Shown here piece by piece: positions 10,750 through 10,995 of a DNA stretch of 37,978 nt. Source of the DNA: a bacterium (lineage in GTDB: Bacteria > Bacillota_I > Bacilli_A > RF39 > UBA660); NCBI GenBank assembly GCA_029007115.1, contig JAQXHG010000030.1, positions 1-37,978 of the forward strand, read 5' to 3'. The translations under genes and the position numbers were made by a program. Each line of letters starts with the position of its first letter. Position 1 is the first letter of the stretch. The notes beneath the pieces are model-generated. The model did not search any database. It was not told the origin of the DNA and was given only the letters and a program-made list of their open reading frames with translations.

Positions 10750-10995
10750 TTACGATGCGAATGGATTAAAGAATAATAGCATAAAGCAAAACGCAAACAT
10801 TAATAAGATAAATATAGATAGAATTATCATTATTATCATTAATGAACTAACTATTTCATTTTTTACTTCTGGGTTTCTACCAACTGCTTCTGCAATTTTA
10901 GAGCCTAATATACCAACACCAACTCCAAATCCCGCTAGTGAAAAACCCATAATCATTCCTATAGAATCCATTATTGAAGAGATAACTTGTTCCAT
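10750..10995 (-). CDS. atpE: F0 c-like rotor-ring subunit lacking the ion-binding carboxylate
   Basis: An 81-residue hairpin of two helices. Helix 1 keeps the glycine packing motif ([18 protein letters not shown]) and the polar loop keeps RNPE (40-43), so a c ring is expected. In helix 2 the conserved Glu or Asp that binds H+ or Na+ should lie about 18 residues after the loop proline; here that place is S60 or I61 and there is no acidic residue anywhere in helix 2 (51-76). The ring should therefore not carry ions. It is the first gene of the ATPase operon, with its own promoter and a strong AAGGAAGGT site. Confidence 0.9.

Follow-up and report, generated by a model that had tools for sequence, protein, structure and literature searches.

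To our knowledge, every c ring characterised so far couples rotation to ion flow, and a ring without an ion site cannot carry H+ or Na+ by the mechanism known from F-type biochemistry. Among the described systems closest to the one reported here are two from Mycoplasma. The Type 3 F1-like X0 ATPase (MIB-MIP) is an F1-like ATPase without an ion-pumping Fo, encoded in an operon with large surface proteins; c is absent from its clusters, which carry a 12-TM and a two-TM protein instead (PMC3369863, PMC12994834), and a homologue of b or delta was not found by sequence in either Type 2 or Type 3 (PMC3369863). The gliding G1-ATPase of M. mobile (Type 2) has an F1-like head that performs mechanical work. 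It has no c ring, its alpha is devoid of the stalk-binding N-terminal helix, and a b-delta fusion has been proposed as the origin of its GliD, which has no transmembrane (TM) segment (PMC11864180). Two ion-pumping enzymes are also relevant: mycobacterial F1Fo, in which a b-type TM helix is fused to the delta domain, and the N-ATPase, a second F-type operon found beside the normal one.

Here we report on an operon located in the window, that is, the whole 37,978-nt stretch of DNA that was analysed. It has in common with canonical F1Fo alpha, beta, gamma, the N-terminal domain of epsilon, a c hairpin with the GxGxGxG motif and the RNP loop, and b and delta, here fused. Unlike canonical F1Fo, it lacks subunit a and the carboxylate in c, its epsilon is short, and it also encodes a 5-TM protein and four surface proteins.

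Results

Organisation of the operon

The operon comprises 10-11 genes, which encode four single-TM surface proteins (S1-S4), c, a b-delta fusion, alpha, gamma, beta, a short epsilon and a 5-TM protein. The following features were assigned in the window:

1..4347, minus strand: S4, at least 1449 aa, running off the contig end; N-terminal TM, shared domain, long extracellular arm
4418..5254, minus strand: S3; N-terminal TM, beta-rich extracellular domain
5244..5759, minus strand: 5-TM protein, family not recognised
5762..6022, minus strand: short epsilon, N-terminal domain only (assigned by hhalign to canonical epsilon)
6012..7370, minus strand: beta; Walker A, catalytic Glu and DELSEED intact
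7372..8187, minus strand: gamma, the rotor shaft (PF00231, E 2e-21)
8211..9959, minus strand: alpha; Walker A, arginine finger, disordered Pro/Ser-rich C-terminal extension
9983..10747, minus strand: b-delta fusion, peripheral stalk; b-like TM and long helix, six-helix domain, delta/OSCP-like C-terminal beta part
10750..10995, minus strand: c subunit without the ion-binding carboxylate; two TM helices, 81 aa
11954..13417, minus strand: S2; N-terminal TM, domain common to S1, S3 and S4, further extracellular part
13414..18690, minus strand: S1, 1758 aa; N-terminal TM, shared domain, long repeat arm (Fn3-like, weak)

When 80 loci were compared, the gene order S1-S2-c-(b-delta)-alpha-gamma-beta-epsilon-TM5-S3 was found in most of them, with gamma and S3 relocated in one group. 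The large S4 usually comes next after S3. No NCBIfam family was matched significantly by the stalk, epsilon, 5-TM, S2 or S3 protein, whether taken from the window or from Kineothrix.

Two minus-strand ORF fragments of 108 and 75 aa lie between S2 and c (11135-11850); they look like a broken secreted protein and are absent from the same place in most relatives. Beside the operon, at 18972-20083, there is a plus-strand pair of probable lipoproteins, the second of which is thioredoxin-like (CFSCF motif) and the first possibly rhodanese-like.

A c subunit without its ion site

Within and upstream of the c gene, three further features were located:

10768..10845, minus strand: helix 2 of c, residues 51-76 (about), Phe-rich, without Asp or Glu
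10816..10818, minus strand: codon of S60, which corresponds to the canonical carboxylate column (18th residue past the loop proline in 27/27 canonical c subunits)
11000..11009, minus strand: ribosome-binding site AAGGAAGGTG of the c gene

The ATG lies four bases downstream of this strong ribosome-binding site, and the encoded protein matches Pfam ATP-synt_C at 36.3 bits (cut-off 24, E 7e-9), although it stays below every NCBIfam equivalog cut-off for subunit c (29 against 43.95 bits for TIGR01260). Judged from its sequence, the 81-aa ORF is a genuine c subunit. Both the GxGxGxG motif (G22-G28) and the RNP loop (R40-P42), which the first-pass annotation had described as kept, are indeed present and are invariant among 12 aligned orthologues, whose c subunits are 49-81% identical to that of the window (the corresponding range for the 5-TM protein is 12-34%).

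The same annotation had claimed that helix 2 lacks the ion-binding carboxylate, and this was borne out well beyond the window. Neither D nor E occurs in helix 2 of the window c or of any of 102 orthologous c subunits (79 distinct), whereas all 27 canonical c subunits compared, some of them from the same genomes as the orthologues, carry a Glu there. Since none of the 102 family members has an acidic residue in this helix, its loss is neither a chance event nor a sequencing error. The place of the missing residue had been left between S60 and I61. The canonical carboxylate is always the 18th residue past the loop proline (27/27), which settles the choice on S60 and discards I61. The residue-60 column holds T in 42, S in 30, A in 27 and M in 3 of the orthologous proteins.

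An acidic residue in helix 1 facing the ion path had been named as one of two findings that would speak against the reading of the ring as a pure rotor. The carboxylate-free c subunits have no membrane acid in helix 1, and so none that faces the ion path. In helix 1, the column that provides a ligand in Na+ rings holds I, L, V, M or F in all 71 distinct orthologues tested, where most of the canonical proteins compared have Q or E. The helices are also more hydrophobic than canonical ones, with a mean helix 2 hydropathy of 3.07 against 1.97 and 3.9 Phe per helix against 0.9. This argues against an aqueous pore and agrees with a bearing embedded in lipid; on the same ground, the idea of a pore through the ring for export was rejected.

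The F1 head and shaft

The catalytic motifs of the head are kept throughout the family: Walker A of beta in 70/71 sequences, the catalytic Glu motif in 71/71 and the arginine finger of alpha in 76/76. Alpha, too, retains its Walker A, and DELSEED is retained in many relatives. The 86-aa epsilon aligned with canonical epsilon over 79 columns (hhalign E 6e-4), as compared with E values of about 0.5 for other subunits.

The C-terminal extension of the window alpha is Pro/Ser/Gln-rich and disordered. The alpha ORF reaches 1416 aa in one relative (G024, locus L025, 3660-7910, reverse orientation) and 829-845 aa in others. An internal TAA in the beta genes of G035:C55 and G317:C2 reflects either recent decay or an assembly error.

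The stator, the 5-TM protein and the absence of subunit a

The 254-aa protein encoded after c matched no Pfam or NCBIfam family significantly. Its profile aligned with canonical delta at E 4e-5, through a C-terminal motif, and with b at E 7e-4, a weak match at the TM end, other subunits giving 0.08 or more. A single-chain AlphaFold2 model (mean pLDDT 90, pTM 0.54) has a TM helix continuing into an 80-residue helix, then a helical bundle and a C-terminal beta part. When this model was submitted to Foldseek, the first 35 rows all came from ATP synthases (best E 5e-3), most of them being delta/OSCP chains or b-delta chains of mycobacteria, and VIA-align superposed it on delta with Z of about 5 over 116-118 residues at 4-5 A. 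Although the single scores are modest, the Foldseek list is unanimous and the sequence motif agrees, and the identification as a b-delta fusion that preserves the peripheral stalk is thus a good one, resting on profiles and a predicted model. At 254 aa the protein is shorter than its mycobacterial counterpart (about 440 aa), and unlike the mycobacterial enzyme the machine has no subunit a.

No a subunit was found in the operon in the loci compared, and PF00119 had no match in the whole window genome; by the same model, 15 of the 20 other host genomes do possess an a subunit. The profile similarity of the 5-TM protein to subunit a does not extend beyond 27 TM columns (hhalign E 0.016). Among 29 aligned sequences of the 5-TM family there is no invariant or nearly invariant residue, and hence no conserved arginine. 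On these comparisons the 5-TM protein is a member of the operon and not detectably an a subunit.

Sequence-profile searches of the PDB with the stalk, epsilon, 5-TM and S3 alignments yielded nothing significant; hemagglutinin rows at E of about 0.1 were dismissed as coiled-coil noise.

Surface proteins with a shared domain

A single beta-rich domain is homologous among S1-S4, with pairwise hhalign E values from 1e-15 to 9e-5 against 0.03 or worse for controls. S3 contains little beyond this domain, and its single-chain AlphaFold2 model has a pLDDT of 89. Foldseek and VIA-align searches with the S3 model returned weak, partial rows resembling beta-propellers (best E 0.013; Z below 4 for the beta domain), and no fold is claimed. 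S1 and S4 carry long arms: the S1 of Kineothrix has collagen and Ig-like domains, and one S4 has a weak GLUG match. Given their association with the operon and their topology, S1-S4 are the most plausible extracellular partners or load of the ring.

Distribution, hosts and phylogeny

The family was traced by two routes. In the first, genomes of the window's own family (n = 291) were searched with beta rather than with c. This type of beta was present in 23 of them and an ordinary beta in two, the remaining 266 having no close beta at all, so that the lineage largely lacks F-type ATP synthase. Besides the window, the operons found through beta contain 22 c genes in this context, none of which is acidic in helix 2. 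Orthologues in the same gene context that keep the carboxylate, the other finding named beforehand as contrary evidence, were thus absent when the operons were collected independently of c. The two exceptions (L081, L082) are F1Fo operons of the ordinary type, in which c is normal and an a-like multi-TM protein is encoded upstream. In the second route, 84,980 species genomes were scanned with the 12 aligned c sequences; 146 relatives were found and 80 kept, all 80 without an acid in helix 2. Because carboxylate-free sequences served as seeds in that scan, it is the beta-based route that is free of bias.

By the titles of their records, the relatives from the scan belong to Bacilli/RF39-like and Tenericutes MAGs, Erysipelotrichaceae, Lachnospiraceae, Clostridiales Family XIII, Oscillospiraceae and Peptococcaceae, and include the cultured Kineothrix alysoides KNHs209 as well as Lachnospiraceae bacterium G11. 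The window host is a gut bacterium and, as far as gene content can tell, about a hundred other sequenced Firmicutes carry the same machine. Occurrence is patchy, with 23 of 291 genomes in the window's family and 4 full-length matches in 299 genomes of the Kineothrix family.

A divergent version was seen in a genome of another family of the class (G037, locus L028), where a c without carboxylate is accompanied by short epsilon-like and 4-TM proteins and by surface proteins of 800-1735 aa; it probably extends the carboxylate-free family. The Lachnoclostridium MAG BRZ_GB__bin22 has two copies of the operon (L115, L121).

The window genome (1.24 Mb, 93% complete) contains no c, alpha or beta beyond this operon. 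Its sole PF00006 ATPases are the alpha and beta of the operon, and no other F/V-type ATPase was found. With no a subunit either, F/V-type membrane-coupled ATP synthesis appears to be missing in this host, allowing for the incompleteness of the genome. Canonical F1Fo is also present in 15 of 20 other host genomes, namely Kineothrix and 14 more; the two c genes of Kineothrix map to C2:388 kb (canonical) and C2:713 kb (carboxylate-free). The presence of a normal F1Fo beside the machine in these hosts indicates that the role of the latter is not ATP synthesis.

In the beta tree the family is recovered as a single clade (100/100) that is distinct both from canonical beta, even where this comes from the same hosts, and from Mycoplasma Type 3. 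A joint alpha-beta tree gave the same separation in both halves and placed the family before canonical and Type 3 sequences with modest support (82-90), the deep branching order being unsure because the stems are long. Of the Mycoplasma systems, it is Type 3 that the trees sample.

Discussion

From the computed subunit identities, the loss of the ion site, the intact catalytic motifs, the b-delta stalk, the conservation of the operon and the shared extracellular domain, a hypothesis regarding the machine may be put forward. We consider it probable that the operon encodes an ATP-hydrolysing, non-pumping rotary machine whose mechanical output goes to a large extracellular assembly of S1-S4, turning or bracing it. 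The F1 head (alpha3 beta3) would rotate a gamma-epsilon shaft fixed to a ring of carboxylate-free c, with the b-delta fusion, as stator, holding this head at the membrane. In place of subunit a, a bearing or anchor may be provided by the 5-TM protein. Torque would pass through the membrane by way of the c ring to an assembly built on the domain that S1-S4 share, two of these proteins having very long arms. With a ring incapable of binding ions and no a subunit, the work would be mechanical. The initial reading of the ring as a pure mechanical rotor is supported accordingly, and the missing a subunit, which had not entered into it, strengthens it further. What we infer is a ring that assembles and rotates, a load made up of the S proteins, and surface movement or adhesion as the outcome. 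A more specific version, in which F1 torque through the non-conducting ring turns an extracellular structure and the whole is an ATP-driven rotating surface organelle unrelated to flagella, is put forward tentatively, as a possibility somewhat short of even. Beyond what had been noticed at first, the system is widespread, has a complete stator stalk and F1, often stands beside a normal ATP synthase, and is tied to four extracellular proteins, likely its load.

The main rival is a static ring, in which the c oligomer is a membrane anchor and F1 either acts on the surface proteins through the stalk in a push-pull manner or powers their export or assembly. F1-like heads do occur in export ATPases, the same profiles matching FliI/SctN, and the large products of the operon are all predicted to be extracellular. 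Yet gamma, epsilon, the c hairpin and the b-delta stator, which rotary coupling requires, have all been retained, the surface proteins have ordinary N-terminal TM anchors and would not need a dedicated exporter, and the helix lining the ring lumen is too hydrophobic for an export pore. We therefore regard this explanation as unlikely, if worth keeping in mind. That the machine is instead an unusual ion pump, with Ser/Thr and backbone groups binding the ion and the 5-TM protein serving as a new a subunit, is the least probable of the readings considered. The site column is T or S in 72/102 sequences and the 5-TM gene lies in the same operon, but that column is A or M in the other 30/102, the second ligand column is aliphatic, and the 5-TM family has neither an invariant residue nor a conserved arginine, its likeness to a being limited to those 27 TM columns at E 0.016. 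A decaying or regulatory relic of an ATP synthase is likewise very unlikely. The patchy occurrence (23/291 and 4/299 genomes) and the internal TAA in the beta of G035 and G317 would fit such a relic; against it, the catalytic motifs and the operon order are conserved, alpha and beta group in a single old clade that excludes canonical F1, even from the same hosts, and the window genome has no canonical enzyme to regulate.

The remaining alternative is kinship with the Mycoplasma F1-like X0 or G1 motors, the operon being derived from them or ancestral to them. The logic is the same, with an F1-like head, no ion pump and large surface partners, and for GliD of G1, too, a b-delta fusion has been proposed (PMC11864180). 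Still, the two groups stay apart in the alpha and beta trees, and the Mycoplasma clusters have no c. Nothing in the operon is similar to the Mycoplasma P1, P2, P4 (epsilon-like) and P5 proteins, and detectable similarity is confined to alpha, beta and gamma. The curated Mycoplasma alpha/beta models all stayed under their cut-offs (NF045863, 372/600; NF045936, 303/520; NF045934, 414/570; NF045858, 397/850 bits). Descent in either direction is unsupported by the trees and by the X0 proteins, and we find it improbable. As neither the X0 proteins nor P4 resemble parts of the operon, the machine and Mycoplasma F1-like X0 are best seen as separate conversions of F-type enzymes. The N-ATPase resembles the machine in being a second F-type operon beside a normal one; unlike the machine it pumps Na+ and keeps the ligands in a and c, and its models were also under cut-off here (TIGR03305, 416/752 for beta; TIGR03324, 361/750 bits).

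The open-access literature searched yielded no account of this operon, although the open-licence scope of that search makes such absence weak evidence. The parts are of known kind, but the combination of a c ring without its site, the absence of a and a shared extracellular module is new to the best of our knowledge. If the preferred reading of a non-pumping rotary machine is right, a conserved family that keeps ring, shaft and stator without ion site or channel would be evidence that rotary ATPases lend themselves to conversion into mechanical motors acting across a membrane. Whether F-type rotors perform work other than ion transport outside Mycoplasma is a long-standing question, which is now testable in the cultured Kineothrix alysoides, whose normal ATP synthase provides an internal control. 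For reduced genomes such as that of the window, the annotation of c, alpha or beta does not imply ATP synthesis.
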